DNA of 64,000 nt from Pseudomonas sp. G.S.17 (GTDB taxonomy: Bacteria > Pseudomonadota > Gammaproteobacteria > Pseudomonadales > Pseudomonadaceae), in assembly GCF_038096165.1 (NCBI RefSeq), contig NZ_CP151076.1, positions 3,407,501 through 3,471,500 of the forward strand, given 5' to 3'. The notes under the pieces were generated by a model. The model did not search any database. It was not told the origin of the DNA and saw nothing but the letters and a program-made list of their open reading frames with translations. Shown one piece after another: positions 34,529 to 52,825 of this stretch (position 1 is its first letter; each line of letters opens with the position of its first letter). The position numbers and the translations under genes are program-made.

Positions 34529-35902
34529 TCAATCAGGGGAAGATGACGCGCTCACGCTCCGTTTATGGAACGTCATTTTCCCCCAGATCAACCCGATGAC
34601 CGCAGCAACAGATGAGGCTGCCAGCACACTGAGTTTGGCGGATGACAGTAATGCAGGATCGGCAAACGCCAACGATGCAATGAAGATAGACATGGTGAAG
34701 CCAATCCCGGCCAACAGCCCAACCAGCCCTACCCCACTCCACGTCACGCCATCGGGTAACTTGCAAATGTTCAGTTTGACCAGCGCCACGCTGGCCAGCA
34801 TGACGCCCAGCGGCTTGCCAAGCACCAACGCCAACATCACGCCCACGAACACTTTCTGTGAAAGTGCCTCGTCGAGGTTGGCGCCCGCGAAGCTCACCCC
34901 TGCGTTAGCCAGAGCGAACAGTGGCATGACGCCAAACGCCACCCATGGGTGCAACCCAACCTGGATTCGCTGTACGGGAGGCAGCACTTCACGCTGGGCG
35001 AGGCGCAATTGCTTAAGCGGTTCAGCTACGGCCTGCGGGTTGTCTTTGGCCTGAGAAAAGCGATCCATCAACTCATGAAAAGTCCGTCCGATTGTTTCCA
35101 GTGGACGCTCCGTTGTCGGCTTGGAGTTCACCGGCGTCATGAGCCCGAGTATCACACCCGCCAGTGTTGGATGAACCCCGGTTTTCAGCAGGCCAAACCA
35201 GACAATCGCGCCGGGCACAACGTAGGCATACGCCTTGCCAATACCCATTCGCTGTAAAACCAATACCAGTGCCAAACCGCCCAAGGCGACGACCAGCCCA
35301 AGATAATCAAGGCTAGCGGTGTAGAAAATCGCGATGATCAAAATGGCCACAATGTCATCGATAATTGCCAGTGCCAACAGCAGAATGCGTACGCCACTTG
35401 GGATCGATTTGCCCAACAGTGCGAGTACCCCGACAGCAAACGCGATGTCGGTCGCGGTAGGCACAGCCCAGCCAGCACTCGCCTCGCTGCCGTGATTGAG
35501 CAGCGTGTAAATGATTGCCGGCATCATGACACCGCCCAGCGCCGCCCCTAACGGCAACGTCGCAAGTTTCATATTTGCCAGTGCACCGTCCTTGATCTCC
35601 TGACGTATTTCAGCACCAACCACCAAGAAGAAGATCGTCATCAAGCCGTCGTTGACCAGAAAATGCAGTGAGCGAGAGACGCTAAAATCGCCCAACCCCA
35701 AGGTGATCTGCGTATTCCAGAAATGCTCGTAGGAATCGGCAACTGGACTGTTGGCCCAAATCAGCGCCGCCAGGGCAGCAAGCAGAAGGACAATGCCGCT
35801 GACCGCTTCAATGTGGGAGAACCGCTCCAATGCTGAGAACGCACGTTCGGTTAAAACCTGAGGACGAGGGATGGCAGGTGAGGCGGAGTTTTTTTCAGAC
35901 AC
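34529..35902 (-). CDS. nhaA: Na+/H+ antiporter NhaA (copy 1)
   Basis: A 457-residue NhaA with about twelve transmembrane helices. The ion-binding Asp pair is in [19 protein letters not shown], and [20 protein letters not shown] carries the other conserved helix. [12 protein letters not shown] in the second helix region is typical. NhaA exchanges Na+ or Li+ for H+ at alkaline pH. The reading frame is open to 36055, but a GTG at 35900-35902 with GGAG seven bases upstream (VSEKNSAS) gives a normal N-terminus. Directly upstream is a conserved leader element also found before the second nhaA. Confidence 0.92.
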
Positions 35903-35962
35903 GAGAACACTCCGTTGGCGGCCCGACCAACGTTTGCATTTAACCTGCGCAGTGCCGTATGC
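35903..35962 (-). promoter_or_regulatory. Candidate cation riboswitch in the nhaA leader (copy 1)
   Basis: Read on the minus strand, the leader has CAGGTTAA, 19 bases later GGTCGGGCCGCC (35917-35928) held by the stem CGTTGG/CCAACG, and then GGAG before the GTG start. The same block, with a different stem sequence, precedes the second nhaA at 51548-51598. The arrangement fits an nhaA-type Li+/Na+ riboswitch. Confidence 0.6.
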
Positions 35963-36140
35963 AACAACGCACCCAGCGCGATGATAAGAAGCTGGCGGTT
36001 GAGATGCAAATTGCCATCTCCCGTCGTGGCATGAAACTTCTGCCCTAGGCAACACTCAATCAGGCCATAGCGTGATGGCACACATCACTGATGTTGAACG
36101 GGCCTCCCCACGATGGGCCCTACTATTGAAGGTACGAACT

Positions 36141-37418: not shown

Positions 37419-37634
37419 GTCCCCTCGCCCCGCCAGAATGACGTCCTCGGTGCTAATGATGCGAGCTGGCCATGAAATGCTGGAAGAAAAGCATGATCGA
37501 GGCTGCGGTTCAAACGTAAAGGCCTCGCGAAACACCTGCGTACAGATTGGCTAGCAACTTGCCACCTTCTTTCGCCTGCATCGACTACAGTGCAATGACT
37601 CTGCATAAAGCCATAACAAGACGGAGCATTCCCA

Positions 37635-38588
37635 ATGCGAGTAACACAGCGTTTTACCCTTCTGGCCGCCGCGGCCACCCTGGCAGTCACCAGCGCAGCG
37701 CAAGCAGCACCGGTGTTTATCAACATACTCACCGGGGGCACCAGCGGGGTTTATTACCCGATTGGGGTTGCCTTGTCGCAAATCTACGGTGAAGCCATAC
37801 CTGGAGTGAAGACCTCGGTTCAGGCCACCAAGGCATCGGTGGAGAATTTGAACCTGCTGCAGTCCGGGCGTGGTGAGTTGGCCTTTGCCCTCGGTGATTC
37901 GGTTGCGGACGCCAAAAATGGAGTGGAAGACGCGGGTTTCAAAACACCGCTTACCAAGTTGCGCGCGATTGCAGGCGCTTATCCCAATTACATTCAAATC
38001 GTGGCCAGCAAGGAATCGGGCATCAAGACCCTGGCAGACCTCAAAGGCAAAACTGTATCGGTCGGGGCACCGAAATCAGGCACGGAACTGAACGCACGGG
38101 CGATCTTCAAGGCCGCGGGGCTGACCTATGAGGATATGGGCAAGGTTCAATACCTGCCTTTTGCCGAATCTGTCGAGCTGATTAAAAACCGACAACTGGA
38201 CGCAACCCTGCAATCTTCCGGGCTAGGCATGGCGGCCATACGCGACCTTTCCTCGGTCATGCCGCTGAACTACGTCTCCATCCCCACTGATGTGGTGGCG
38301 AAAATTGGTAACGCGGCTTATCAGAGCGCAATGATTCCCGCCAACACCTATGACGGACAGCCAGAGGCAGTCCCGACCGTCGCGATTACCAATATCCTCG
38401 TTACCCGTGATGATGTACCCGATGAGGTTGCCTATCAGATGGCCAAGCTGATCTTCGAAAACCTCACACGTCTGGGCAACTCTCACTCTGCGGCTAAAGA
38501 CATCAAGCTGGAAAATGCAGCCAAAAATCTGCCCATCCCGCTGCATCCAGGTGCCGAGCGTTACTACAAAGAAAAAGGCGTGCTCTAA
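37635..38588 (+). CDS. TAXI-family TRAP transporter solute-binding protein
   Basis: A 317-residue periplasmic receptor of the TAXI type. The signal peptide ends near SAAQA (residue 24). The core opens with INILTGGTSGVYYPIGVALSQIYGE, the TAXI signature, and the hinge region carries VSVGAPKSGTELNARAIFKAAG near residue 135. The C-terminus ends with IPLHPGAERYYKEKGVL, the usual HPGA-RYY end of this family. GGAG precedes the ATG by eight bases. It is the first gene of a three-gene TRAP operon, and a stable hairpin lies between it and the permease gene. Confidence 0.9.
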   Translation: MRVTQRFTLLAAAATLAVTSAAQAAPVFINILTGGTSGVYYPIGVALSQIYGEAIPGVKTSVQATKASVENLNLLQSGRGELAFALGDSVADAKNGVEDAGFKTPLTKLRAIAGAYPNYIQIVASKESGIKTLADLKGKTVSVGAPKSGTELNARAIFKAAGLTYEDMGKVQYLPFAESVELIKNRQLDATLQSSGLGMAAIRDLSSVMPLNYVSIPTDVVAKIGNAAYQSAMIPANTYDGQPEAVPTVAITNILVTRDDVPDEVAYQMAKLIFENLTRLGNSHSAAKDIKLENAAKNLPIPLHPGAERYYKEKGVL

Positions 38589-38596
38589 CAAACCAA

Positions 38597-38625
38597 GGCG
38601 CAGCGGCGCACAGTGCCGCTGCGCC
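38597..38625 (+). promoter_or_regulatory. Intercistronic hairpin between TAXI receptor and TRAP permease genes
   Basis: GGCGCAGCGGC (38597-38607) and its exact complement (38615-38625) enclose a 7-nt loop, just after the stop of the receptor gene, and no T tract follows. This mirrors the hairpin between the tctC-type and tctB-type genes at 29895-29926. Confidence 0.65.
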
Positions 38626-38668
38626 CGCACATCGCTCGATTTCAATGTGGTCATGAGGCAGGCAGGAC

Positions 38669-40696
38669 ATGAGTGAAGATCATCACGGCATTCCCGCGAA
38701 CCCGCGGGACTGGCCAAAAACCTTATTTTATGTGGCGCTGGCGTTTTCGATCTTTCAGATCATCACGGCCGCGTTTGCGCCGATTTCCAGTCAGATCTTG
38801 CGCGCCGTACACGTGGGGTTTCTGCTCTGGGTAGTGTTTCTGAGTTATCCGGCTTATGGCAGGAATCGTCCCTGGCAGCCGTTGGCCTGGGTACTTAGCC
38901 TGGCCGGTATTGTCACGGCTTTGTATCAGTGGGTATTTGAGGCGGATCTGATTCAGCGCTCGGGCGATCTGACAACCAGCGACATGGTGATCGGGCTGGT
39001 CTTGATTGCACTGGTGTTCGAGGCCGCCCGACGGGTAATGGGAATTGCATTACCGATGATCTGTGGCCTGTTCCTGGCCTATGGGTTGTTGGGTGAATAC
39101 TTGCCCGGCGACCTGGCACACCGAGGGTATGGCTTCGACCAGATCGTCAACCAGCTGTCTTTTGGCACCGAAGGGTTGTACGGCACGCCGACTTACGTGT
39201 CCGCCACCTACATCTTTCTGTTTATCCTGTTCGGTGCGTTCCTTGAACAGGCAGGCATGATCAAGCTGTTCACTGATTTCGCCATGGGGCTGTTCGGGCA
39301 CAAAACCGGGGGGCCAGCCAAGGTAGCGGTAGTTTCGTCGGCACTGATGGGCACCATCACCGGCTCGGGCATCGCCAACGTCGTCACCACCGGGCAGTTC
39401 ACTATTCCGCTGATGAAGCGCTTCGGCTATCGGGCAGCATTCGCCGGGGGCGTAGAAGCAACCTCCAGCATGGGCAGCCAATTGATGCCGCCGGTGATGG
39501 GCGCAGTCGCGTTCATCATGGCCGAAACCATCAACGTCCCTTTTGTGGAAATCGCCAAGGCGGCATTGATCCCCGCCATCCTCTATTTTGGCTCGGTGTT
39601 CTGGATGGTTCATCTGGAAGCCAAGCGCTCCAATCTCCAGGGACTCCCCAAAGACCAATGCCCCAGCGCGTTAGGTGCCGTGAAGGAAAACTGGTACCTG
39701 CTGATTCCACTATTGGTGCTGGTCTATCTACTGTTTTCCGGGCGCACCCCGCTGTTCTCCGGCATGGTCGGGTTGGCATTGACCGCTATCGTGATCCTCG
39801 GCTCGGCGATCATTCTCAGGGTGTCCAGCTTCGCTTTGCGCTGCGCCTTCTGGATTGCGCTTGGCGTGCTGTGCGTCGGTTTCTTCCAGTTGGGGATCGC
39901 TGTGATCTTTGCGGTCATAGCGGTTCTGGTGGCGGCGTGCTGGTTCATCAAGGGTGGCCGGGACACCTTGACCATCTGCCTGCACGCGCTGGTCGATGGC
40001 GCACGCCACGCCGTACCGGTAGGGATTGCCTGTGCGTTAGTCGGCATCATCATCGGTGTGGTGTCACTGACCGGCGTTGCATCGACCTTCGCTGGCTACA
40101 TTTTGGCGATTGGCCGGGACAATCTGCTGCTGTCGCTGATCCTGACCATGATCACCTGCCTGGTGTTGGGCATGGGCATCCCGACCATTCCCAACTACAT
40201 CATCACCAGTTCAATAGCCGCACCGGCCCTGTTGGAGTTGGGGGTTCCACTGATTGTGTCGCACATGTTCGTGTTCTATTTCGGCATCCTTGCAGACCTG
40301 ACCCCACCGGTCGCCCTCGCCTGCTTTGCCGCTGCGCCGATTGCCAAGGAGACAGGATTCAAGATCAGTCTGTGGGCGGTGCGTATTGCGCTGGCTGGAT
40401 TCGTCATTCCATTCATGGCGGTCTACAACCCGGCGCTTATGCTGCAAGGTGACAATCTGTGGATGACGGCTTACATGCTGATCAAGACAACACTGGCAGT
40501 GGGCCTGTGGGGCATGGCCTCGACCGGGTATCTGCAACAGAAGATGCCAATATGGGAGCGCTCGCTGAGCTTCATCGCCGGGGCTTTACTGGTAGTGGCT
40601 CTGCCGTTCACCGATGAGATCGGCTTTGCGCTAGGCATACTGGTCATCGCCCTACACTACTGGCGCGCTCGCCAGACAGGCTTGGCGAAAGCATGA
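38669..40696 (+). CDS. TRAP transporter fused permease (DctQM-type)
   Basis: A 675-residue membrane protein combining the small and large TRAP subunits, as is normal in TAXI systems. About five helices at the N-terminus precede a DctM-like body with GAFLEQAGMIKLF, GPAKVAVVSSALMGTITGSGIANVVTTG near residue 210 and GMGIPTIPNYIITSSIAAPAL near residue 500. The protein moves carboxylates using the Na+ gradient. GCAGGCAGGAC precedes the ATG. The stop overlaps the start of the DUF1850 gene by four bases (ATGA). Confidence 0.9.
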   Translation: MSEDHHGIPANPRDWPKTLFYVALAFSIFQIITAAFAPISSQILRAVHVGFLLWVVFLSYPAYGRNRPWQPLAWVLSLAGIVTALYQWVFEADLIQRSGDLTTSDMVIGLVLIALVFEAARRVMGIALPMICGLFLAYGLLGEYLPGDLAHRGYGFDQIVNQLSFGTEGLYGTPTYVSATYIFLFILFGAFLEQAGMIKLFTDFAMGLFGHKTGGPAKVAVVSSALMGTITGSGIANVVTTGQFTIPLMKRFGYRAAFAGGVEATSSMGSQLMPPVMGAVAFIMAETINVPFVEIAKAALIPAILYFGSVFWMVHLEAKRSNLQGLPKDQCPSALGAVKENWYLLIPLLVLVYLLFSGRTPLFSGMVGLALTAIVILGSAIILRVSSFALRCAFWIALGVLCVGFFQLGIAVIFAVIAVLVAACWFIKGGRDTLTICLHALVDGARHAVPVGIACALVGIIIGVVSLTGVASTFAGYILAIGRDNLLLSLILTMITCLVLGMGIPTIPNYIITSSIAAPALLELGVPLIVSHMFVFYFGILADLTPPVALACFAAAPIAKETGFKISLWAVRIALAGFVIPFMAVYNPALMLQGDNLWMTAYMLIKTTLAVGLWGMASTGYLQQKMPIWERSLSFIAGALLVVALPFTDEIGFALGILVIALHYWRARQTGLAKA

Positions 40697-41079
40697 TCGG
40701 CTTGTGTCTGGGCCTTGCCGGTGTGGTCTGGGCCCAACTTCCCATTTCCACCTTTACGCTCGCCTGGAACCACACCATCGAAAAAATCCGCTGGGAGGAA
40801 GACTATCGCGTCACCGAGCTGGGCCTGTTGTTGGGGGAGGCCCGAGTTCGGGGCACTGGCGCGGGCATGGATATACCACAAGGCGCTCAGCTCAAAAATG
40901 GCAGTTGGCATTACCACCGTCAGTTGCCCCCCCTGCAACCTCTGAAGCTTGGGCGAACGCCGGAAGCTGGCGACTTCGAGCTGTGCTTCGATGACTCCTG
41001 CCATTTGATGAGCAAATGGGTCGGAGCACCCAATGCCCGTGACGCGGCCATAGAGCTTTGGACCTGTACGTCAAACTGA
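40693..41079 (+). CDS. DUF1850 family protein, accessory to TAXI-TRAP transporters
   Basis: A 128-residue protein. An N-terminal hydrophobic segment (MIGLCLGLAGVVWA) is followed by FTLAWNHTIEKIRWEEDYRV, which is the conserved start of DUF1850. Two cysteines appear in LCFDDSCHLM. The family occurs next to TAXI-TRAP permeases, as here, where the two genes overlap by four bases. Role unknown; a periplasmic or membrane-bound helper is a reasonable guess from context only. Confidence 0.8.
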   Translation: MIGLCLGLAGVVWAQLPISTFTLAWNHTIEKIRWEEDYRVTELGLLLGEARVRGTGAGMDIPQGAQLKNGSWHYHRQLPPLQPLKLGRTPEAGDFELCFDDSCHLMSKWVGAPNARDAAIELWTCTSN

Positions 41080-41140
41080 GGCTGCGATTACCAGAAAAAT
41101 TCTCTGCGAAATAGAGTACTGCCCTTACCGCCAGGCCAGC

Positions 41141-41160
41141 GCAAACGCAAACGCAAACGC
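41141..41160. repeat. Short hexanucleotide repeat
   Basis: Three consecutive GCAAAC units plus part of a fourth lie between the convergent DUF1850 and ModA-like genes. This is a simple tandem repeat outside coding sequence; its number could vary by slippage. Confidence 0.6.
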
Positions 41161-41162
41161 GG

Positions 41163-41954
41163 CTAGTGGATGGGTTTCAATCCGCTTTGCTCAAGCGCTT
41201 CGCGCCCCTTGTCCGATTCCATGTAGTCAAGCAAAGCCATGGCCTCGGCAGGATGTGAACTGTTTTTCAACACACCGCCCGAATACAAAATCATTTGCTG
41301 GGCCTTATCAGGAATCAGGCCAACGATATCAATACCGGGTATCGATATGAGTTCACTCAACTGCTGAACGCCCAACTGAGCCTCACCACGGGCCACGACG
41401 TTACCCACCGGCTCGTCGGGGACGGCCTTGCTCTTGAGCTTGAAGTTCTGATCCAGCGCCATGTGCGGGAAGAGCCAGTGAGACAGATAAGCGCCGCCTG
41501 AGCTGCCTGAATAAGCTACCGAATCGGCGCTGATCAAGGTCTGGCGAAACGCCTTCATACTGCCGATATCGGGCTTGACGGCACCTTCAAGCACAGCCAT
41601 GGCGATGAATGATTTACCCAGATCGACCCGTGTACTTTTGTCGACCTGGCCTTGGGCAATAAGCTTGTCCAGCACCACACCGACAGTTAGTACCACATCC
41701 GCTTGCTCATTGCGGTCAAGGCGATTGGGAATCGCCTGCGGGCTCGGTCCTCTGGGTGGAGCAGCCTTGACGGCGAGCTTGACGCCAGTGGTTTTTTCGT
41801 ACTCAGGAGCGATGGCCTGCACCGCCCCCATGACGCCACTGGAACTGAGAAGCGTCAGGGTCACGGGTGTGTTTTGCGGCGCATCATCCGCATAGCTGAC
41901 GCCCGGACTTAACAACACACAGGACAACAAAACAGGTTTGAATAAAAAGCGCAC
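41163..41954 (-). CDS. Periplasmic substrate-binding protein (ModA-like)
   Basis: A 263-residue binding protein of the ModA/SBP_bac_11 class. The signal peptide (VRFLFKPVLLSCVLLSPGVSYA) starts at a GTG at 41952-41954 with GAGGAA nine bases upstream. LTLLSSSGVMGAVQAIAPEYEK is the family start, VAYSGSSGGAYLSHWL corresponds to the second ligand loop, and LYSGGVLKNSSHPAEAMALLDYM is the usual C-terminal region. No ABC permease or ATPase gene is adjacent, so it is an orphan receptor; molybdate is not certain, because such orphans bind other oxyanions or organic acids. Confidence 0.78.
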   Translation of the reverse strand: MRFLFKPVLLSCVLLSPGVSYADDAPQNTPVTLTLLSSSGVMGAVQAIAPEYEKTTGVKLAVKAAPPRGPSPQAIPNRLDRNEQADVVLTVGVVLDKLIAQGQVDKSTRVDLGKSFIAMAVLEGAVKPDIGSMKAFRQTLISADSVAYSGSSGGAYLSHWLFPHMALDQNFKLKSKAVPDEPVGNVVARGEAQLGVQQLSELISIPGIDIVGLIPDKAQQMILYSGGVLKNSSHPAEAMALLDYMESDKGREALEQSGLKPIH

Positions 41955-42015
41955 GGCAGGCAGTTCCTCGGATGGGAAAACCTTCACGCTAAAACAAGCG
42001 CCGGCTCGCGCCGCG

Positions 42016-42045
42016 TTAACTCGCATTAAGAAAAATTTAGATTAA
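42016..42045. promoter_or_regulatory. TTAA-repeat element upstream of the response-regulator gene
   Basis: TTAA at 42016, TTAA at 42026, TTAG at 42037 and TTAA at 42042 give spacings of 6 and 7 bases between the first three. That resembles a PmrA-type box (TTAA-N7-TTAA). It lies 70-100 bp before the response-regulator start. A similar array occurs at 44167-44191. Confidence 0.45.
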
Positions 42046-42114
42046 TGGACAAACGTACCGGCTCAAGGTGCAGTTGCCGTTAGAATGCATGCCCTTCTCA
42101 GCCTGGAGACCCGA

Positions 42115-42792
42115 ATGAATCGTGCACTGGTCATCGAGGATGACGACGTCACGGCACAGGCGATCATTGCCGAGCTTAGTGCCCATGGTTTCAGTACGCA
42201 GTGGGCCAACAACGGACGCGAAGGCCTTGCCATGGCAATCGCCGGTGGCCACCAGGTGATCACCCTGGATCGCATGTTGCCCGACTACGATGGGCTGACC
42301 ATCGTCAGCACGTTACGTCAGTTGGCAATTCAAACGCCGGTTCTGATGATAAGCGCTTTGTCGGACATCGACGAGCGCGTACGCGGTCTGCGCTCCGGAG
42401 GAGACGATTACCTCACCAAACCGTTTTCAATGGTGGAAATGATCGCGCGGGTGGAGGTCCTGCTTAGAGATCCTGCGCCCGGCAGCACCGACCACTGCCT
42501 GAACTTTGGCGGCCTGCACATCGGCTTGATAACACAGACCGTGACACTCAACGGCGATGCAATCGCCCTCCTTCCCACCGAGCTCAAGCTCCTGACCTAC
42601 CTGATGCGTAACGCTGGACAATTGGTCACGCGTACCATGTTGTTTCAGGAAGTATGGGGTTACCACTTCGACCCAGGCACCAACATTATCGACGTGCATA
42701 TCGGACGTCTGCGCAAAAAAATAGAAGCTGATGGCGCTCCGGCCATCCAGACGATTCGCGGGTCAGGTTATGTTCTGGTTGAAAAAAACTGA
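42115..42792 (+). CDS. OmpR/PhoB-family response regulator
   Basis: A 225-residue response regulator. The receiver domain has the acidic pair at residues 8-11 (EDDD), the phospho-acceptor Asp52 (TLDRMLPDYDG) and Lys102 (YLTKPFS). A winged-helix domain follows, with LPTELKLLTYLMRNAGQLVTR and VDVHIGRLRKKIE near residue 200. GGAG before the ATG at 42115 is preferred to the upstream start at 42085. The sensor-kinase gene begins inside the last codons, so the two are translationally coupled. The TTAA repeats upstream may be its own binding site. Confidence 0.9.
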   Translation: MNRALVIEDDDVTAQAIIAELSAHGFSTQWANNGREGLAMAIAGGHQVITLDRMLPDYDGLTIVSTLRQLAIQTPVLMISALSDIDERVRGLRSGGDDYLTKPFSMVEMIARVEVLLRDPAPGSTDHCLNFGGLHIGLITQTVTLNGDAIALLPTELKLLTYLMRNAGQLVTRTMLFQEVWGYHFDPGTNIIDVHIGRLRKKIEADGAPAIQTIRGSGYVLVEKN

Positions 42793-44170
42793 GCGCTGGC
42801 GCTCCAGCAATAGCCGCCTGATCGGTTTATATGCGCTGTTTTTTGTGGCGTGGTGCGCGGTATTCACCGGTGTGCTGTATTGGCAGATTTCAGCCTATCT
42901 GGGCACTGTCGCCGAACGCACGCTGATGCAGCGTGCGCATTATTACCAGAAGGTGGACGACGCCACACTGCTGGCTGAACTGTCCAGCAACGATGCGTAT
43001 TCCGTCCCAGGGATCGACGCATATGGCCTGTTCGAAGCGGATGGCAGGCACATCACGGGAGATCTGCTCAGGCTACGCGCGACACTTCCTGACGACGGCC
43101 TCGTCCATTATCTGGAGCGTGGTTTGAGTATTGCCCTGCCCAGTGAGGAAACCCGCAGCAGCTACGCACTCAGGCAAAACCGGGCTGACGGCAGGATCTT
43201 GATTCTGGCTCGTGACGGGGGTTCGATTGCGGCCGTCGGAGGCATCATCGGGCAGGCTTTGTTCTGGGGACTGTCACTGACCCTGATCCCCGGCCTGATA
43301 GGCTGGCGCCTGCTGCGAAGGCGCCCCATTCGCCGGGTGGAGAAATTACAGCGCAGCACTGAAAGCATCGTCTCGGGCAACCTGGGCGAGCGTTTGCCAC
43401 TTTCTGATCGTCGCGACGAACTGGACATGCTTGCCCATGCCGTAAACACCATGCTTGAGCACATCGAACAACTGATGCTGGAGGTCAAAAGCGTTTGCGA
43501 TGGTATTGCACACGATTTGCGAACACCGCTGACCCGGCTTCGTGCACGGCTTTATCAATTGCAAAAGTTACCTCTAGAACAGGGCTACGCCGACACGCTG
43601 AATCTGGCGCTGGAAGAGAGCGAGTCCATCATGTCCCGATTCCAGGGCCTGCTGCGTATCTCAGAATTGGAAGATACCCGGCGGCGCTCGGCTTTCATCA
43701 CGTTTGCGCCAGGGCTACTACTACAACAGGCCCACGAATTCTACGAGCCACTGGCCCAGGAAAAAGGCCAGCGGTTGATCCTGCTGATAACGGATGAATG
43801 CCCGACACTGCAAGGCGATGTCTCGCTGTTGTTTGAGGCGCTCGTTAATCTTATAGATAACGCGATCAAGTTCACTCAGGCGGGCGGTGAAATCCAGTTG
43901 AGCTGCGTGCCAAGGGAGCACAGTGTGCATATCGAAGTGCTCGATAATGGCCCGGGCATCCCCATCGACGAACGCAACAGTGTTACCCGACGCCTGTATC
44001 GCGGCGACGCCACGAGACAGCAACCCGGTAACGGGCTCGGCCTCTCGCTCGTCGCGGCCATTGCGCGCCTTCATGGGTTTGGCTTGAACATCGGAGAGGG
44101 GAATCAGGGCCCTGGTACCCGGATCACACTGGATTGCCCGCTACGTGAGGTCGTGCCAGAGGCTTATTAA
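42770..44170 (+). CDS. Sensor histidine kinase
   Basis: A 466-residue inner-membrane histidine kinase. Transmembrane helix 1 (about 17-38), a periplasmic sensor of about 115 residues, helix 2 (about 155-178), HAMP (about 180-230), a dimerisation domain with the phospho-acceptor His248 (DGIAHDLRTPLTRL) and a catalytic domain with LVNLIDNAIKFTQAGG, DNGPGIP and GNGLGLSLVAAIARLHGF. The ATG lies inside the response-regulator gene, an overlap of 23 bp. The stop is 79 bp before a DD-carboxypeptidase gene. The signal is unknown. Confidence 0.9.
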   Translation: MFWLKKTERWRSSNSRLIGLYALFFVAWCAVFTGVLYWQISAYLGTVAERTLMQRAHYYQKVDDATLLAELSSNDAYSVPGIDAYGLFEADGRHITGDLLRLRATLPDDGLVHYLERGLSIALPSEETRSSYALRQNRADGRILILARDGGSIAAVGGIIGQALFWGLSLTLIPGLIGWRLLRRRPIRRVEKLQRSTESIVSGNLGERLPLSDRRDELDMLAHAVNTMLEHIEQLMLEVKSVCDGIAHDLRTPLTRLRARLYQLQKLPLEQGYADTLNLALEESESIMSRFQGLLRISELEDTRRRSAFITFAPGLLLQQAHEFYEPLAQEKGQRLILLITDECPTLQGDVSLLFEALVNLIDNAIKFTQAGGEIQLSCVPREHSVHIEVLDNGPGIPIDERNSVTRRLYRGDATRQQPGNGLGLSLVAAIARLHGFGLNIGEGNQGPGTRITLDCPLREVVPEAY

Positions 44171-44191
44171 ACAATTCTTAATCCCGGTTAA
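44167..44191. promoter_or_regulatory. TTAA-repeat element upstream of the DD-carboxypeptidase gene
   Basis: TTAA at 44167, 44178 and 44188 gives spacings of 7 and 6 bases, the mirror of the array at 42016-42045. It overlaps the end of the kinase gene, 60-80 bp before the carboxypeptidase start, so the response regulator may activate this gene. Confidence 0.45.
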
Positions 44192-44249
44192 TTTGAGGCG
44201 ACATGATCGTTCATCTAGGTTGGCGGACCTTCCGACGACCCAAGGCTTC

Positions 44250-45485
44250 ATGTTCGTGAAACATCCGACACTATGGCTCGCTCTGACACTTGTTTGCGCT
44301 CACGCTTTACCGGCGTTGGCTGCCCCCTCAGGCCCCATGATCCCCTCAGCGCCTCAGCTTAATGCCAAATCCTGGGTACTCATGGATGCCGGCAGCGGTG
44401 ACATTATCACCAGTCACGACCCTCATGAGCGACTGCCTCCTGCCAGCCTGACCAAATTGATGACGGTCTATGTAGCCACCAATGAGATCCTGGCTAACCG
44501 CCTCAAAGCGGATGATCTGGTGACGATCAGCGAAAACGCCTGGCGCACCGGGGGCTCACGCATGTTCCTTGACCCTCGCAGTCAAGTGCCCGTGCAAGAC
44601 CTGCTGCGAGGCATCGTGATCGGTTCGGGCAACGACGCCAGTGTTGCGTTGGCCGAGCATATCGCGGGCAGTGAAGACAGCTTTGCCGACCTGATGAATG
44701 CCACTGCAGAAAAACTTGGACTGCTGGACACCCACTTCCTGAACCCCACAGGCTTGCCTGTGCCTGATCACTACTCATCGGCTCAGGACATGGCGAGCCT
44801 CGCCCGGGCAATTATCATCGATGAGTCGGCTTACTACTCGCTGTACAAGCAGAAGCACTTCACCTGGAACGGTATACGCCAGCCCAACAGAAACCTGTTG
44901 CTGTGGCGCGACAGTTCGGTTGACGGCCTGAAGACAGGCCATACCGAAGCTGCGGGTTACTGCATGGTCACCTCCGCAGTGCGAGACGGGCGACGCCTGA
45001 TTACTGCAGTATTTGGCTCCTCCTCAAAAAATAATCGTGCCAATGACGCAGGAAAACTGCTGACCTACGGATTCCGTTTCTTCGATACTCAGACCTATGC
45101 CAAAGCCGCTCAAGTGCTGGCTAACCCGATGATATGGAAAGGTGAAAACCGCACGGTGCAGGTTGGGTTACTGGACGATCTTTCCCTCACCCTGCCGAAG
45201 AATCCGAAACGCACAACCGAAACTCGCCTGAACATCAACGAGCCTCTTACGGCGCCAATTGCCATGGGGGCAGTGGTCGGTACTCTGACGCTTTACGAGG
45301 GTGACAAGAAGCTGGCGACCCGGCCTTTGATTGCACTTGAGGCTCAGGCTTCAGGCGGTTGGTGGGCACGCACATGGGATACGTTGAAACTCTTCATTCT
45401 CGACCTTTTTGGCGCTGCTGCAGGATCTTTGGAGACTAATGCCAGTGGAGTGGTTGACAGCTTGCAGCGTTCCGGCAGCGCTTAA
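44250..45485 (+). CDS. D-alanyl-D-alanine carboxypeptidase (PBP5/6-type)
   Basis: A 411-residue penicillin-binding protein that trims the terminal D-Ala from peptidoglycan. The signal peptide ends near ALAA (residue 25). The active-site motifs are SLTK at 66-69, SGN at 126-128 and KTG at 228-230. A second domain follows, and the C-terminus has an amphipathic helix (TLKLFILDLFGAAAG) that would anchor it to the outer face of the inner membrane. AAGG lies before the ATG at 44250. The last residues are extended and Ser/Ala-rich. TTAA repeats upstream link it to the adjacent two-component system. Confidence 0.85.
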   Translation: MFVKHPTLWLALTLVCAHALPALAAPSGPMIPSAPQLNAKSWVLMDAGSGDIITSHDPHERLPPASLTKLMTVYVATNEILANRLKADDLVTISENAWRTGGSRMFLDPRSQVPVQDLLRGIVIGSGNDASVALAEHIAGSEDSFADLMNATAEKLGLLDTHFLNPTGLPVPDHYSSAQDMASLARAIIIDESAYYSLYKQKHFTWNGIRQPNRNLLLWRDSSVDGLKTGHTEAAGYCMVTSAVRDGRRLITAVFGSSSKNNRANDAGKLLTYGFRFFDTQTYAKAAQVLANPMIWKGENRTVQVGLLDDLSLTLPKNPKRTTETRLNINEPLTAPIAMGAVVGTLTLYEGDKKLATRPLIALEAQASGGWWARTWDTLKLFILDLFGAAAGSLETNASGVVDSLQRSGSA

Positions 45486-45727
45486 TCATCCCACAGACTC
45501 AATGGTTGAGCTGAAAACTGCCAAACGGGCTAACCCATCGCTGACTAAACCGGACATTGGCAGCCGCTCTGCGGCTACGAGTCGTAGCTGATATCCAATA
45601 TGGCTGATCAACCGGTTTTTTTGGCAATGCGGGTCAGAATAGGGAACCATCTATCCCGTTCTACCATCCGAACAGAGAGCATCAATACAAATGCACGCCA
45701 GAACGTGCCCTAACCAAGGAGGCTCTC

Positions 45728-47398
45728 ATGGGTCAAAACCCAAAGGATGAACCACCGATCAATCCTCAGCACGTCAGTGAGGACGGCATTCCTGCTCCCA
45801 GCGGAGCAGCTAATCTGATCGATACCGACTATGTCATCGGTCAAGACAACATCAAAGGTGATTTTTCTTTCTCGCTCGATATCCATGGCAAAGTTTTTAT
45901 CATTTCGGCAGCGGCAATATTGCTGTTCGTCATTTTGACGTTAGCGCTTCAGAATGAAGTTGAACCCCTTTTCAGTTCGGTCCGCGACTGGCTGACCAGC
46001 CACCTTGCCTGGTTCTTCATGAGCGTGGCCAACGTATTTGTTGTGCTGTGCCTGGCGCTGATTGTGTCTCCGCTGGGTAAGGTCCGCCTCGGCGGCAGAG
46101 ATGCCAAACCAGACCACACTTACGTGGGCTGGTTTTCAATGCTTTTTGCTGCCGGCATGGGCATCGGTTTGATGTTCTATGGCGTTGCCGAACCTATGTC
46201 GCACTACGCAGCTTCAATGGGCGGTGTCACCCTTGACGCCAATGGAGCTCGCACCGACTGGGCACCGCTGGCAGGCGCTGCAGGCGATATGAAAATGTCC
46301 GCCGACCTGGCAATGGCCTCGACGATCTTCCACTGGGGACTGCACCCTTGGGCGATTTACGCGATTGTCGCCTTGTCCCTGGCGTTGTTTTCGTACAACA
46401 AGGGCCTACCACTCTCAATACGCTCGATTTTCTATCCATTACTGGGCGAACGTGTCTGGGGATGGCCAGGGCACATCATCGATATTCTCGCGGTTTTCGC
46501 CACGTTGTTCGGTTTGGCGACATCCTTGGGGATTGGCGCAGAACAGGCGGCCGCGGGGATTGAGTACTTATTCGGTATCAAGTCCACAAATCTAAGCAAA
46601 GTCTTGCTGATCATCGGTATCACCCTGATCGCACTCTGGTCGGTGCTGGCAGGGTTGGACAAGGGCGTGAAGATGCTGTCCCAGATCAACATGGGTTTGG
46701 CGCTGCTCTTGCTTTTGTTCATTATCGTAGTGGGCCCGACCCTGGCGATTTTTACTGGCTTCTTCAAGAATCTGGTGACCTACGCCGAGTATCTACCGGC
46801 ACTGTCCAACCCCTTCGGACGCACCGACACCGAATTTACCCAAGGCTGGACTGCCTTCTACTGGGCGTGGTGGATCAGTTGGTCGCCCTTTGTCGGGATG
46901 TTTATCGCCCGCGTCAGTCGCGGTCGAACCGTGCGAGAGTTTCTGGTCTCGGTATTGCTGGTGCCTACGCTGGTTTCGGTATTGTGGATGACAACGTTCG
47001 GTGGAACAGCGATTGATCAAGCCACTGTCCAGGGCTTTGTCGGGGTCAAGGATGCCGTCCTGGAGCTCAAACTGTTCGCGATGCTGGGGCACCTACCGCT
47101 CAAGGAAATCACCTCGTTCCTGGGAATTATCCTGGTCATTGTCTTCTTCATCACGTCCTCGGATTCCGGCTCCCTGGTGATCGACACTATTACAGCCGGT
47201 GGCAAAGTCGATGCACCTGTCCCACAGCGCGTGTTTTGGGCGGTCATTGAGGGTGTAATCGCTATCGCCCTGCTCCTCGGTGGTGGCCTGGTCGCGTTGC
47301 AGGCGATGGCGGTCTCAACCGGCCTGCCGTTCGCAATTGTATTGATGCTGGGCTGTATTTCGCTGGTCAAGGGCCTGATGTCTGAGCCCAGATCCTGA
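45728..47398 (+). CDS. BCCT-family transporter
   Basis: A 556-residue betaine/choline/carnitine-type transporter with 12 transmembrane helices and a polar N-terminal tail of about 50 residues. The signature GWFSMLFAAGMGIGLMFYGVAEP near residue 137 and WAWWISWSPFVGMFIARVSRGRT near residue 380 are the substrate-binding segments of the family. The long regulatory C-terminal tail of osmosensory BetT is lacking. AAGGAGG precedes the ATG. An intercistronic hairpin separates it from a mechanosensitive-channel gene downstream. Confidence 0.88.
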   Translation: MGQNPKDEPPINPQHVSEDGIPAPSGAANLIDTDYVIGQDNIKGDFSFSLDIHGKVFIISAAAILLFVILTLALQNEVEPLFSSVRDWLTSHLAWFFMSVANVFVVLCLALIVSPLGKVRLGGRDAKPDHTYVGWFSMLFAAGMGIGLMFYGVAEPMSHYAASMGGVTLDANGARTDWAPLAGAAGDMKMSADLAMASTIFHWGLHPWAIYAIVALSLALFSYNKGLPLSIRSIFYPLLGERVWGWPGHIIDILAVFATLFGLATSLGIGAEQAAAGIEYLFGIKSTNLSKVLLIIGITLIALWSVLAGLDKGVKMLSQINMGLALLLLLFIIVVGPTLAIFTGFFKNLVTYAEYLPALSNPFGRTDTEFTQGWTAFYWAWWISWSPFVGMFIARVSRGRTVREFLVSVLLVPTLVSVLWMTTFGGTAIDQATVQGFVGVKDAVLELKLFAMLGHLPLKEITSFLGIILVIVFFITSSDSGSLVIDTITAGGKVDAPVPQRVFWAVIEGVIAIALLLGGGLVALQAMAVSTGLPFAIVLMLGCISLVKGLMSEPRS

Positions 47399-47434
47399 TG
47401 AGCTGCTGAGCTACGAGAATCTGAATTTACTTTA

Positions 47435-47468
47435 CCTGCGAGGCGTACCGCTGTTACGCCCTCGCAGG
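47435..47468 (+). promoter_or_regulatory. Intercistronic hairpin between BCCT and MscS genes
   Basis: CCTGCGAGGCGTA (47435-47447) pairs with TACGCCCTCGCAGG (47455-47468) over about 13 bases with one extra base, giving a stem with a 7-nt loop 36 bp after the transporter stop. It would attenuate or end the transcript before the channel gene. Confidence 0.55.
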
Positions 47469-47485
47469 ATTCTACTGAGGACGGC

Positions 47486-48598
47486 ATGGTTCAACAAACT
47501 ATCGATTTTTTTATACACTACCAGCTCTTAGGCATTGCACTTGCCAACTGGGCGTTAGCTATTCTAGCTGCAACGATAAGCTTCCTGTGCGCCAGGACTG
47601 TCATCGGTTTTTTCCTCACCAAACTCCAGGCGAAACCATCACAACCCAACGCCCCCATCAGTCATATCACGATTGAAGTGCTTTCAGGCACCAGTAACAC
47701 CCTGTTGCTACTTGCATCGATACTGATAGGCATCGGCGTACTTGACTTGCCTGAGCGTTGGTTGGCCAGAGTCGGCAGCCTTTGGTTTGTTGTCGCGGCG
47801 CTGCAGGTTGGCCTGTGGGCGAATCGGGCTATTGCACTCGCGCTATCCCGGTACTTCCGACGTCACGGGTCCAGTGAAACTTTCCAAGGCAGTGCGCTGG
47901 CGACGTTGAGTGTGTGGGGAGCGAAAGTATTGTTATGGGTCATCGTCGTGATGTCCATGCTTTCAAACGTGGGTGTAAACATTACTGCCTTCGTCGCCAG
48001 TCTTGGTGTCGGCGGCATTGCCATTGCGCTGGCTGTCCAGAATATACTGGCCGATGTTTTCGCTTCACTGTCTATTGCTGTAGACAAGCCCTTTGAGATT
48101 GGGGATTTCATTGTTGTCGGTTCGCTGTCAGGTACCGTAGAACATGTGGGCCTGAAGACAACCCGGATACGTAGTCTGGGTGGCGAACAGATCGTGATGG
48201 CAAACGCAGAAATGATCGGCAGTACGATACAAAACTACAAGCGACTTCAAGAGCGTCGTATTGTATTTGAAATCGCGCTCACCTATGCCTGCTCCCCTCA
48301 ACAAGCCAGAGAAGTTCCAAAACTTATCGAGAATATCGTCGGGGATCAAAATAAAGCCAGATTTGATCGCTCCCATTTACGGACCTTTGGTAATAGCGCG
48401 CTAGAGTTCGAAACTGTCTACATCGTGCTGGATCCAAGTTACAACGTTTACATGGATGTTCAGCAGGAAATCAACCTTGGGATACTGGAGGCTTTCACTA
48501 AGCTGGGCGTCAGTTTCGCCCATCCTTCCCGCACGATCCATGTAGCCTCAGTACCTAATGACAGCGCTCTCGCTACCCTTACCAACCACGCCATTTAA
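47486..48598 (+). CDS. MscS-family mechanosensitive channel
   Basis: A 370-residue channel with transmembrane helices at about 12-35, 58-80, 95-112, 138-160 and the pore helix. The pore and beta-domain signature ASLGVGGIAIALAVQNILADVFASLSI near residue 170 is characteristic of MscS, and PFEIGDFIVVG follows. Longer than E. coli MscS, with extra N-terminal helices, so it belongs to the mid-size YbdG/YnaI-like group. TGAGGAC precedes the ATG. Release of osmolytes on hypo-osmotic shock is the general role, and the neighbour takes up osmolytes. Confidence 0.85.
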   Translation: MVQQTIDFFIHYQLLGIALANWALAILAATISFLCARTVIGFFLTKLQAKPSQPNAPISHITIEVLSGTSNTLLLLASILIGIGVLDLPERWLARVGSLWFVVAALQVGLWANRAIALALSRYFRRHGSSETFQGSALATLSVWGAKVLLWVIVVMSMLSNVGVNITAFVASLGVGGIAIALAVQNILADVFASLSIAVDKPFEIGDFIVVGSLSGTVEHVGLKTTRIRSLGGEQIVMANAEMIGSTIQNYKRLQERRIVFEIALTYACSPQQAREVPKLIENIVGDQNKARFDRSHLRTFGNSALEFETVYIVLDPSYNVYMDVQQEINLGILEAFTKLGVSFAHPSRTIHVASVPNDSALATLTNHAI

Positions 48599-48709
48599 AC
48601 GAAGGCACGGGTTGCAATGTTTCCATTTTCTTTCGAAAACCAACCCTATTAACGTTATAGGAGACCTTGGATCTTTGTGGAAAAACGTCTGATTGATCAA
48701 AGCAACAGA

Positions 48710-49435
48710 TCAATCCCAAAACGCCCCGATGGGAGTGGATGGACAATAGTTATTGGCTATTTGCGCCTGCAGTAACTCAGCAGTAGCGAGGGCGTCGGTT
48801 AGCGCGTGGTGGGCGTGGTAGTTCGGGAGGTTGTAGCGTGCGCGGCTGTCAGCCAGCCTTATCGAACGCTGAGGACGGAGCAGAAGCCGGTCGAGCCATC
48901 CCGGTTTCTGTCGATGCATTCGTGCTTCCAGTTGCATTGTATCAATGACCGGAAATTGCAGCCCTTCTCCTAGATAATGGCGAAATGCCTGATCAAGAAA
49001 GCCTCGCTCAATATTTCGGTAATGTACGACCATCACTTTTCCTGCCATGGCGCCCAACAGAGCCTCCACAATCTCAGTCAGTGGGGGGGCATGCAAAATA
49101 TCGCTATGGGTGATGTGGTGGAAGGTGATCGATTGTCCGTTCAGCTCTGATGGCGGCTTTATCACCCAATACAATGCCTGACCACAACGTACCCGTTGCA
49201 AGGTGAAAGGTATCAGGCCGATGCTGACAATGCTGTGGGCCTGGGCGTTGAGGCCGGTAGTTTCCACATCCATCGCAAGCAGTTGCACTTGCTCTATGGG
49301 TGTCTGCGCGGCAACGGTTCCAGCTTCATAGAATGTGTGCAGGCAAGGATGGATGGCGTTCTTCGCCAATACCTGAAACCTGGCCGCCCAGTCCAGCGCT
49401 TCAGGTTTGCGAGCAGATCTGCTACCCCTCATCAC
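48710..49435 (-). CDS. 3'-5' exonuclease (DEDDh, DnaQ-like)
   Basis: A 241-residue exonuclease of the DnaQ fold. Exo I is AMDVETTGLNA (Asp56, Glu58), Exo II is near MVVHYRNIERGFLDQ with an Asp, and Exo III is HHALTDALATAELL with the His and Asp. About 45 residues precede the core. The ATG overlaps the stop of the CBS/DUF294 gene by four bases, so the two are translationally coupled. This pair recurs in pseudomonads and is thought to belong to a signalling or nucleotide-metabolism unit; the substrate is unknown. Confidence 0.85.
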   Translation of the reverse strand: MMRGSRSARKPEALDWAARFQVLAKNAIHPCLHTFYEAGTVAAQTPIEQVQLLAMDVETTGLNAQAHSIVSIGLIPFTLQRVRCGQALYWVIKPPSELNGQSITFHHITHSDILHAPPLTEIVEALLGAMAGKVMVVHYRNIERGFLDQAFRHYLGEGLQFPVIDTMQLEARMHRQKPGWLDRLLLRPQRSIRLADSRARYNLPNYHAHHALTDALATAELLQAQIANNYCPSTPIGAFWD

Positions 49436-51309
49436 GACTGACGCCTTTTGCCCGGATAGCGAAACCGTAGAAAGTTCTGCGCATTGCTCAAAACCTTGAA
49501 CGCCTCTTTAAGATTGTGCCGTTCACTGGTGGAAAAGCGCTCTGGCTCAATGTAGTTATCCGGCGTCGCACCTTGCTCGAGCGCGTCTGCCTGATGCCGG
49601 ATGCGGACCATGGACAAAAACTCCAATGCATATCGCAGATGCTCCACCGCATCGGGCTGTATGAGCTGGGTGGCACTGATCGCATCGAGACGATCAAAGG
49701 AGTTCTGCGCCGTGCTTGCGCAGGCCAGAGCGTGTATGCGGATGAGGTCGGTTAGCGGGGCCGTACCCCTGCTCTTCAAATTGATAATTCTCTTCTGCTG
49801 GCCGTCTGTTTCTACTACAAACGTACGAAAGAACCCCAAGGGCGGGGTGCGGTTTAGCGCGATTCGGGCCATAGCGTTAAGAAATACGGGATGAGTCCTG
49901 GATTTCTCCGCGCACAACGTCTTGAGCTCCTGGACCAATTCAAGCTGGCCATACACGCCGTCCAGATCGAAAAAAATACTGCTGTTAAGTAGCGTCGCGG
50001 CATTCGGCGTTTCGATCCACTGATCAAAGTAGGCACACCACACTCGCAGCGGCTGCCGCCATTGATCATTGGTCGCCATGACTCCACCCTTGCAATAGCT
50101 ATATCCGCAAGCTGCCAGGCCATCACTGACGAATGTGGCCAGGCTTTGGAAGTAGCTGTCATGCAGAGCGGGATCGAACCCATCATCCAGGACCAAGGCG
50201 TTGTCTTGGTCGGTCACCAGCAACTGTTCATCCCGGGCCATAGAGCCCAGCACCATGAAGCAATAAGGCACTGGCGGCGGGCCCAGTTCTTTCTCCGCCA
50301 GTTCGATCAGGCGCTGGGTAAAGGCCCGGCCGATACCTGAAATCGCACTGCCGATCATGCGCGCTGTTGCGCCCTCACGGACCATGCGAATGTAGGTTCC
50401 GCGAAGTTCTCGTAGCAATGAGCGCAGCCCTGCGACTGACGTCTGATTGGATATTCGGTTGACCAGGTACAGGCTGCTCTGGGACTCGTACCGGATGATA
50501 TCCGACAGATTGATCAGCCCTAGAGTACTGCCGTTGTAGACGACTGGCAGGTGATGAATATTACGCCTCAGCATGACCAACATGGCCTCGAACACCGAGT
50601 CATCGGCCTGTATTGCTACGGGGTCGGGGGACATGATTTCGCTGATGGATGTAGAGACATCGCTTCGCCCCACAGCAACCACGCGGGTGCGCAAATCCCT
50701 GTCAGTCACGATCCCGACCATCTTCGCCGCTTCACCCTCCACTGGAGCCATGACCACGACACAAGCAACGCTTTGTTCGGTCATGACTTTCGCGGCTTCA
50801 TGCACCGAAGTATCGGATGTCACCCAAACCAAAGCACGTGATATCAAGGCCCTGCATTTAAGTTGGGTCAGCTCACTCGCTCGGCCCTGTGCCTCGACTG
50901 CAGACTTGAGCCTGGAGTGACCTTCAGCCTCGACAAAGTCGGCAAAGGCATCGTGCAGAGAGCACATTTGGGCGAACACATCCGCGGGGATGAAGTAGAT
51001 CAGGCTGTCTTCCAGGGCTCGAGCGGGAAACCGAACTTTGTTGCTACGCAGCAAGCCGGCCTGCCCGAAGATATCGCCCTCAACGAGCCGGTTGTAGAGC
51101 TCACCATTTCGGCGATAAACCTCCACTGCCCCACTGCGCACGTAGTGCAGGTCCTGAATAACTGCACCCGCCTCAAGAATATCGCTACCGGCCTTGAAAT
51201 AGCTGACTTCTACGCGCTGGGCTATGGCATCCAGCGATGCCTGCGGCAGCGTATCGAAAGGTGCAAAGCGTTGAAGGTGGTCGCGAATCTCCAGTAACTC
51301 GATTTGCAT
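49432..51309 (-). CDS. Cyclic-nucleotide-binding/CBS/DUF294 nucleotidyltransferase-like protein
   Basis: A 625-residue multidomain protein. Order: cyclic-nucleotide-binding-like domain (about 15-130, with VRSGAVEVYRRNGELYNRLVEGDIFGQ), two CBS motifs (about 160-285, SDVSTSISEIMSPDPVAIQADDSVFEAM), DUF294 putative nucleotidyltransferase domain (about 330-470, with GSMARDEQLLVTDQDNALVLDD) and DUF294 C-terminal domain. The GS...D-x-D pattern of the DUF294 core is visible, as in PII-uridylyltransferase-like enzymes. GAGG precedes the ATG. It is the first gene of a two-gene unit with the exonuclease. Confidence 0.85.
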   Translation of the reverse strand: MQIELLEIRDHLQRFAPFDTLPQASLDAIAQRVEVSYFKAGSDILEAGAVIQDLHYVRSGAVEVYRRNGELYNRLVEGDIFGQAGLLRSNKVRFPARALEDSLIYFIPADVFAQMCSLHDAFADFVEAEGHSRLKSAVEAQGRASELTQLKCRALISRALVWVTSDTSVHEAAKVMTEQSVACVVVMAPVEGEAAKMVGIVTDRDLRTRVVAVGRSDVSTSISEIMSPDPVAIQADDSVFEAMLVMLRRNIHHLPVVYNGSTLGLINLSDIIRYESQSSLYLVNRISNQTSVAGLRSLLRELRGTYIRMVREGATARMIGSAISGIGRAFTQRLIELAEKELGPPPVPYCFMVLGSMARDEQLLVTDQDNALVLDDGFDPALHDSYFQSLATFVSDGLAACGYSYCKGGVMATNDQWRQPLRVWCAYFDQWIETPNAATLLNSSIFFDLDGVYGQLELVQELKTLCAEKSRTHPVFLNAMARIALNRTPPLGFFRTFVVETDGQQKRIINLKSRGTAPLTDLIRIHALACASTAQNSFDRLDAISATQLIQPDAVEHLRYALEFLSMVRIRHQADALEQGATPDNYIEPERFSTSERHNLKEAFKVLSNAQNFLRFRYPGKRRQS

Positions 51310-51547
51310 GAAACCTCAGAATTGATGAGCAAGGGGGATGAACGGGCTGAGTGCCTGCGCCAAGGGGACACCGGAGCTCCACCAAATCACATGTCAGCGT
51401 GATGTTCAACCCGCCGATGCTGGTGTAAAGAGGCCAGCGTCAGGAAGCAGTGTTAGTGCTGATTTCCTACTTATCCGGCATCGCGTCGCCTCCCGATAGA
51501 CGTTTTGTGTAGTATGTGCCGCTGGGTGTCACCGCAAAATGCGGCAA

Positions 51548-51598
51548 GGCAGGTTTAACTTAGCGCAGGTCGGGCCGCCGCGCGGGGTTATTGCGCCT
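51548..51598 (+). promoter_or_regulatory. Candidate cation riboswitch in the nhaA leader (copy 2)
   Basis: The leader contains CAGGTTTAA (51550-51558) and, 18 bases after its first base, GGTCGGGCCGCC (51568-51579) enclosed by the stem GCGC/GCGC. It ends with TTGCGCC just before the ATG at 51599, which has no ordinary ribosome site. The block and spacing match the leader of the other nhaA (35903-35962) with compensating stem changes. Confidence 0.6.
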
Positions 51599-52825
51599 AT
51601 GAACCTGGATCCTTCGCGCCTTGAAAAAGGCCAAAATCATCGTGCATCACCCGCCACACTGGCTTTTCTCTATCGGTTTTTCGCAGCTGAATCCGCTGGT
51701 GGTTTGATCTTGATGGCGGCTGCTTTGGCAGCTCTCGTCGTAGCTAATTCCCCTTGGTCTGAAACTTACTTTTCGACTCTGCATATTAAAATTTTCGGTC
51801 TCTCGATTGAACATTGGGTCAACGATGGGTTGATGGCGATTTTTTTCATGCTGGTTGGGTTGGAGATCAAGCGCGAAATGCTGGTGGGCCAGCTATCGAG
51901 CTGGAGCCAGCGCGCGCTTCCTGGCTTCGCTGCGCTGGGTGGCATGCTGATCCCTGCCATGATCTACATCGCAGTCAATTGGGGAAACAGTGAAACTCTT
52001 GGCGGCTGGGCAATTCCCGCAGCCACCGATATTGCCTTTGCCCTAGGCGTACTGTCGCTGCTCGGAAAGCGTGTGCCGATCTCCTTGAAAATCTTCCTGT
52101 CCGCCTTAGCGATTCTTGATGACCTTGGGGCAGTGCTCATCATCGCGTTGTTCTATACCAGTGGTTTATCAGTCAGCATGTTATTGGCATCGCTGGCCGT
52201 TATCGCTTTTCTGGTTGTGCTCAACCGTTGTGGGGTGAGAAGGCTTTGGCCTTACCTCGTGGCCGGCGGGCTACTCTGGTTCTTCATGCTCCAGTCCGGC
52301 ATCCATGCGACCCTGGCCGGTGTCATTCTTGCGCTATGCATTCCGCTAGGTGATTCGAACAACGATCGAAAATCTCCGCTTCTCTACCTAGAGGAAAAGC
52401 TGCATCCGTGGGTCGCTTTCGCCGTTGTGCCTGTCTTTGGTTTTGCCAATGCGGGGGTATCTCTTGCGGGCATTTCGCCAGGTAACCTGGTCGATCCTGT
52501 ACCGCTGGGCGTGGCTCTCGGGCTATTGCTGGGTAAGCAACTGGGGGTGTTTGGCTTCGCGGCGCTGATCATTCGTTCAGGTCTGGCAAAACTGCCGGAG
52601 GGCTGCGGTTGGTTCCAGCTGTATGGCATCGCACTCCTGTGCGGCATTGGCTTCACGATGAGCCTGTTTATCGGCGCTTTGGCCTTCGCAGGTCATCCGC
52701 TTCTGGTCGACGAGGTAAAGGTTGGCGTATTGCTGGGCTCCATCCTTTCCGCCGTTCTAGGAGTTGTCGTTCTTCTAAGCGTTAGACCTGCTGAGGACCT
52801 AAAGTTGGACCCGGATCCGAAATGA
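51599..52825 (+). CDS. nhaA: Na+/H+ antiporter NhaA (copy 2)
   Basis: A 408-residue NhaA close to the E. coli length. The Asp pair is in [20 protein letters not shown], and [25 protein letters not shown], given as [14 protein letters not shown], is the conserved helix. [13 protein letters not shown] and [13 protein letters not shown] also match. The ATG at 51599 directly follows the conserved leader; the frame is open to 51539, but the leader would then be coding. It is not a recent duplicate of copy 1, since only family motifs are shared. It is divergent from the CBS/DUF294 operon. Confidence 0.92.

Follow-up and report, generated by a model that had tools for sequence, protein, structure and literature searches.

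The nhaA-I RNAs were described as Li+-I riboswitches, with which expression is on in the presence of Li+ (White et al. 2022, PMC9646797). According to the main text of that paper, they bind Li+ at tens of millimolar, the strand that joins P1 to P2 shows the most noticeable structural change with Li+, and Li+ sensing and activation were shown by in-line probing and by reporter assays with a translational fusion. The aptamer of a Pseudomonas monteilii nhaA was among the nhaA-I RNAs probed there, and action at the ribosome site was offered by its authors as a speculation for most nhaA-I RNAs (PMC9646797).

Two nhaA-I aptamers in the window

The window, i.e. the whole stretch of DNA analysed (64 kb), was scanned against all Rfam families, with the gathering score as cut-off (37 bits for RF03057). 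Three matches over the gathering score were obtained, one to a tRNA and two to nhaA-I (RF03057), at 51524-51582 on the forward strand (45.9 bits, E 6.5e-6) and at 35974-35913 on the reverse strand (50.0 bits, E 6.6e-7). The sequence-only reading had placed a known nhaA riboswitch class, or a relative of one, in both nhaA leaders and had named the covariance models of nhaA-I and nhaA-II as the check; the former matched both leaders and the latter neither. Throughout the 64 kb, no match at the gathering score was found for nhaA-II or for Na+-I (DUF1646 motif), and RF03057 was the sole Rfam family to reach its own gathering score in the two leaders. Since RF03057 alone reached its gathering score in the two leaders, these were assigned to nhaA-I and not to nhaA-II; by sequence, both are instances of the nhaA-I / Li+-I riboswitch, an already described class. 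Each copy spans model positions 1-55 of 55, with P1, the CAGGUU joining strand and P2 with GGU-CGGGCC-GCC, and the testable defining features of nhaA-I were found in the window copies, namely the model match, the P1/CAGGUU/P2 architecture, a P2 that covaries in homologues and a location in an ion-transporter leader. The features of the two loci are as follows (groups A and B are defined below).

51524..51582, forward strand: nhaA-I / Li+-I aptamer before the group-A nhaA (RF03057, 45.9 bits)
51532..51544, forward strand: upper P1 hairpin, CCGC/GCGG (Rfam alignment, fold)
51550..51558, forward strand: conserved joining strand J1/2, CAGGTTTAA (Rfam alignment)
51563..51583, forward strand: P2 hairpin GCGC(A)GGT-CGGGCC-GCCGCGC with conserved loop (Rfam alignment; homologue covariation)
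51584..51588, forward strand: likely Shine-Dalgarno GGGGT, directly 3' of P2 (sequence)
51599..52825, forward strand: nhaA, group A, 408 aa (TIGR00773 and NF007111 over cut-off, PF06965)
34529..35902, reverse strand: nhaA, group B, 457 aa, start GTG 35902 (TIGR00773 over cut-off, PF06965)
35910..35913, reverse strand: Shine-Dalgarno GGAG, one base in common with P2 (sequence)
35913..35974, reverse strand: second nhaA-I / Li+-I aptamer (RF03057, 50.0 bits)
35981..36010, reverse strand: promoter-like TTTGCA-18-TATCAT, ending 6 bases before the aptamer (consensus scan)

Three non-standard pairs were seen in the lower P1 of the 51524 copy in the Rfam alignment, and its P2 carries a bulged A at 51567, between GCGC and GG. 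The equivalent of the window's GGGGT is GGAG in most other distinct group-A leaders. The promoter-like site was the one found by the consensus scan of 35880-36120 (0.1 expected), and none was found by the same kind of scan for the 51524 copy in 51400-51640.

The element had first been noticed as an identical 12-mer, GGTCGGGCCGCC, and its two exact occurrences were confirmed (51568-51579, forward strand, and 35928-35917, reverse strand), with 0.09 matches expected by chance in the window and 0/100 shuffles reaching two. It corresponds to the conserved P2 segment of nhaA-I, and the CAGGTT(T)AA element reported ahead of it corresponds to the joining strand (CAGGTTTAA at 51550 and CAGGTTAAA at 35947, 18 and 19 bases ahead of the 12-mer, start to start, respectively). 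The distances from the start of the 12-mer to the start codon were also as given, 31 bases (ATG 51599) and 26 bases (GTG 35902), respectively. The stems enclosing the 12-mer were found as claimed, except that the bulged A at 51567 had gone unmentioned. The extent then assigned to the first copy, 51548-51598, does hold the element but leaves out its 5' part (GGGTG and the P1 hairpin, 51524-51549), the true start lying 24 bases earlier.

Four PF06965 genes are present in this genome (6.27 Mb, two contigs), and only the two nhaA-I matches were obtained in it at E <= 0.001; at the other two nhaA loci (L031 and L033), no Rfam family over the gathering score was found in scans that took in 1.5 kb of flank to either side. 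With the NhaA proteins of L033 and L031, the 51599 protein shares 69% and 55% identity, respectively, and with the 35902 NhaA 41%. It is thus closer to its switchless relatives than to the other switch-bearing protein, and related paralogues therefore differ in carrying the switch. The distant similarity of the two window proteins that had been asserted was upheld by the last figure (439 aligned columns). A recent duplication, which the sequence-only reading had already discounted, was excluded on the grounds of this 41% identity and of the retention of the divergent pair in two further genomes that were examined. Inside the divergent pair (window 34529-52825), TRAP-type, BCCT-like and other genes were noted, their names being read off translations.

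Distribution in the genus and covariation of P2

A total of 398 genomes of the genus, evenly drawn from a larger group, were surveyed, and nhaA-I was matched in 95/398 at E <= 0.001 and in 90/398 over the gathering cut-off. There were 107 match places listed, 101 over the cut-off and 6 below it, and all were inspected; 98 of the 101 lay before nhaA and 3 before a recombinase operon. The places L108-L111 (below the cut-off and not before nhaA) were dropped as chance matches and L030, L052 and L071 were set aside as recombinase-linked, and 100 nhaA leaders (98 over the cut-off) were retained. The class is thus patchy across the genus yet nearly always tied to nhaA (98/101), so that its rare exceptions, among them the recombinase operon, are worth testing.

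The retained leaders were divided by their NhaA proteins into group A (best match to the 51599 protein, n=17), group B (at least 70% identical to the 35902 protein, n=41) and group C (57-66% identical to the 35902 protein, n=42), and the nearest-neighbour leader fell in its own NhaA group in 17/17, 41/41 and 42/42 cases, respectively. The 12-mer is exact in 90 of the 100 leaders, nine end in GCT (varying at the last base only) and one begins with A and ends in GCT (varying at the first and last bases). Its exact form was accordingly present in 90/100 of the retained nhaA leaders, a figure that is partly circular as evidence because the leaders were gathered with a model containing the 12-mer, and only two of this genome's four nhaA genes have a match. 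At the place of window 51593-51601, GTGCCTATG was read in 8/14 distinct group-A leader segments, with an in-frame GTG nearer the Shine-Dalgarno; the window reads GCGCCTATG there, so that ATG 51599 is the sole remaining start.

Two places over the cut-off were found in eleven genomes, with the combinations A+B (six), B+B (two) and C plus a recombinase locus (three). In three of the six A+B genomes (the window's included), the two copies share a contig and are divergent, at distances of about 10, 16 and 17 kb; in the other three they are on different contigs. All 11 window genes tested were found between the nhaA pair, in the same order and 82-97% identical, in G155 (L113), and 5/11, again 82-97% identical, in G050 (L112).

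For P2, arm pairs were counted over all 100 nhaA leaders (39 distinct P2 arm pairs, one bulge or mismatch allowed); 35/39 form all 4 counted pairs and the other 4 form 3, and arms recombined between different sequences form 4 pairs in 47%. The alignment was made with 38/81 distinct P2 segments, i.e. all 31 of group B and 7/50 from groups A and C, and these seven were picked for P2 pairing without a shifted bulge, a choice that favours pairing. Among the 38 aligned leaders, 97.7% of P2 cells were paired and both-side changes were present in four of the seven P2 pairs (four being reached by 11/500 shuffles); the covariation score was reached by 0/500 shuffles, these shuffle figures not being probabilities because the sequences are related. 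The score was 0.303 in register and no higher than 0.155 when the partners were slid. The number of further P2 pair types in the same 38 leaders was not above shuffles (8 versus a mean of 7.3, with 122/500 reaching 8). The analysis shows that P2 covaries in homologous nhaA leaders, which settles in the affirmative the covariation check proposed earlier. Compensatory change, claimed at that time from the two window copies, is thin when judged from these alone and is present in P2 of the wider homologue set.

Proposed mechanism, folding and other readings

Each of the two nhaA genes is, with a probability of about 0.9, led by a Li+-I (nhaA-I) riboswitch through which Li+ would turn NhaA production on, the ligand and the on-switching being inferred from the published class. 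This reading is supported by family membership, the covarying P2, the gene link and the position adjoining the ribosome site, all of which come from the present analysis. The aptamer would fold into hairpins P1 and P2, and the ion site would be formed by the invariant P2 loop together with the CAGGTT strand between the hairpins. Rising Li+ would stabilise the aptamer, by which the ribosome would gain the Shine-Dalgarno/start region just 3' of P2, and NhaA would be made and Li+ expelled. The identity of two regulatory leaders is thereby fixed, and both NhaA pumps are predicted to be Li+-induced.

The Shine-Dalgarno lies directly 3' of P2 in both copies (GGGGT at 51584-51588 and GGAG at 35913-35910), a position that fits action at the ribosome site. 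When P2 was forced in the folding calculation, which leaves out the ion and tertiary contacts, the mean unpaired probability of the Shine-Dalgarno went from 0.38 to 0.29 (group A), from 0.56 to 0.49 (group B) and from 0.54 to 0.54 (group C), and that of the start region from 0.37 to 0.40, from 0.34 to 0.40 and from 0.33 to 0.33, respectively; simple folding with P2 forced thus gave no rise in predicted Shine-Dalgarno exposure in groups A, B and C. In the unconstrained ensembles of groups A and C, the P2 5' arm competes by pairing with bases just before the ATG, and the loop CCGC pairs with GCGG beside the Shine-Dalgarno (mean pair probabilities about 0.25-0.4); the competing pairing in the group B ensemble is a different one.

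Candidate off-pairings were scored per distinct sequence against mononucleotide shuffles and were rejected. Pairing of the P2 5' arm (GCGCAG, 51563-51568) with TTGCGC (51591-51596) reached p<0.05 in 6/14 A, 1/29 B and 4/31 C sequences, that of CAGGTTTA in J1/2 with TGAACCTG in the start region (51600-51607) in 5/14 A, 3/32 B and 8/37 C, and that of the P2 loop with the GCCUGAU of group B in 0/14 A, 5/32 B and 2/37 C. In this modelling, pairings that would hide the start region in the off-state are weakly supported.

The same fold is also used by Na+-II variants, in which one base, a C for U at position 54 (D. propionicus RNA), is partly responsible for the change (main text of PMC9646797), and the window leaders could be such Na+ sensors instead of Li+ sensors. 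The variants presented in that text come from Deltaproteobacteria only, have terminator stems and stand before genes of unknown function, whereas both window copies precede nhaA. No terminator-like site on the transcribed strand was found for either leader (51400-51640; 35880-36120), one being present on the opposite strand in the scan of 35880-36120, and both copies have U (in the GGU of P2) at the position matched, by inference only, to the Li+/Na+ site. Sensing of Na+ by these leaders was accordingly regarded as quite improbable. Decay of the 51524 copy into a non-functional riboswitch might be suspected from its bulged A in P2, its GGGG ribosome site and its weak lower P1 with non-standard pairs, and its score is the lower of the two (45.9 bits). 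That score is well over the cut-off, however, and the copy shares its P1 form GGGTGTCACCGC and its P2 arm GCGC(A)GG with other group-A leaders, and its GGGG ribosome site with L029 and L074; because they recur in this way, the odd features were taken to belong to group A or its closest members, and decay appears very improbable indeed.

The identity of the 12-mer in both copies would also be expected if the element were a remnant of a recent duplication of nhaA with its leader, or of gene conversion, with no selection on structure. The simple form of this explanation is refuted, because the proteins are 41% identical, P2 covaries and the nearest neighbour falls within the same NhaA group for 100/100 leaders, and the explanation in general is hardly credible.

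Recombinase-linked aptamers and comparison with known systems

Outside the window, an nhaA-I match over the cut-off without nhaA downstream was found in three genus members (L030, L052 and L071), in which the next long gene encodes a serine recombinase (in L030, PF00239 with HTH_7). Relatives of the recombinase were present in 15/298 genus genomes at E <= 1e-40, and only the genomes of these three places had one at >= 90% identity. When named genomes were searched with the recombinase, seven loci were obtained; one of them, at 45% identity, is in Henriciella, and the other six are in Pseudomonas (P. argentinensis, P. straminea, P. flavescens and three unnamed species). nhaA-I was over the cut-off in 5/6 of the Pseudomonas loci, the aptamer of the sixth (L137) being visibly damaged, and the Henriciella locus had no nhaA-I over the cut-off. 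L135 and L138 are identical with L030 and L071, and the distinct lineages number seven, i.e. the six Pseudomonas loci and L052. Across these lineages, an ATG or GTG situated, where measured, 19-20 bases after the loop opens a frame of 28-45 codons that begins IPA or IPV, and in 6/7 the stop codon of this frame and the start of the recombinase gene overlap as ATGA (the exception is L137). When four of the short ORFs were compared, the differences by codon position were not by themselves evidence of strong protein constraint. A purC-like protein, identified by reading translations, is encoded upstream at several recombinase-linked loci (L030, L052, L071, L135-L140).

The aptamer at L030:1501-1558 (reverse strand) reads GGCCGGGCC in place of GGUCGGGCC, and this U-to-C change may fall at the position that published variants link to Na+ sensing. 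The main text of PMC9646797 contains neither the word resolvase nor the word recombinase. It is tentatively proposed, at somewhat less than an even chance, that the Li+-I aptamer has been recruited beyond ion transporters in P. straminea, P. flavescens, P. argentinensis and kin, where it would drive the expression of a short ORF whose translation is coupled (ATGA) to that of a serine recombinase, and that the window holds a two-pump Li+ regulon in the form of a conserved divergent nhaA pair, each gene with its own Li+ switch and perhaps a different threshold. If the recruitment is true, alkali-ion stress would switch on DNA recombination.

As far as the known systems are set out in the main text of PMC9646797, nhaA-II / Li+-II resembles the window copies in preceding nhaA and sensing Li+, but it has no similarity to nhaA-I in sequence or architecture. 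The consensus of Na+-I (DUF1646 motif) resembles nhaA-I, and Na+-II variants are unlike the window copies in having terminators and other gene links. The nhaA-I / Li+-I class itself (RF03057) agrees with the window copies in the model match, the nhaA downstream and the adjoining ribosome site. Compared with that class as published, the bulged A in P2 of the 51524 copy was the only difference found apart from the number of copies, the window having two in one genome, for two NhaA paralogues.
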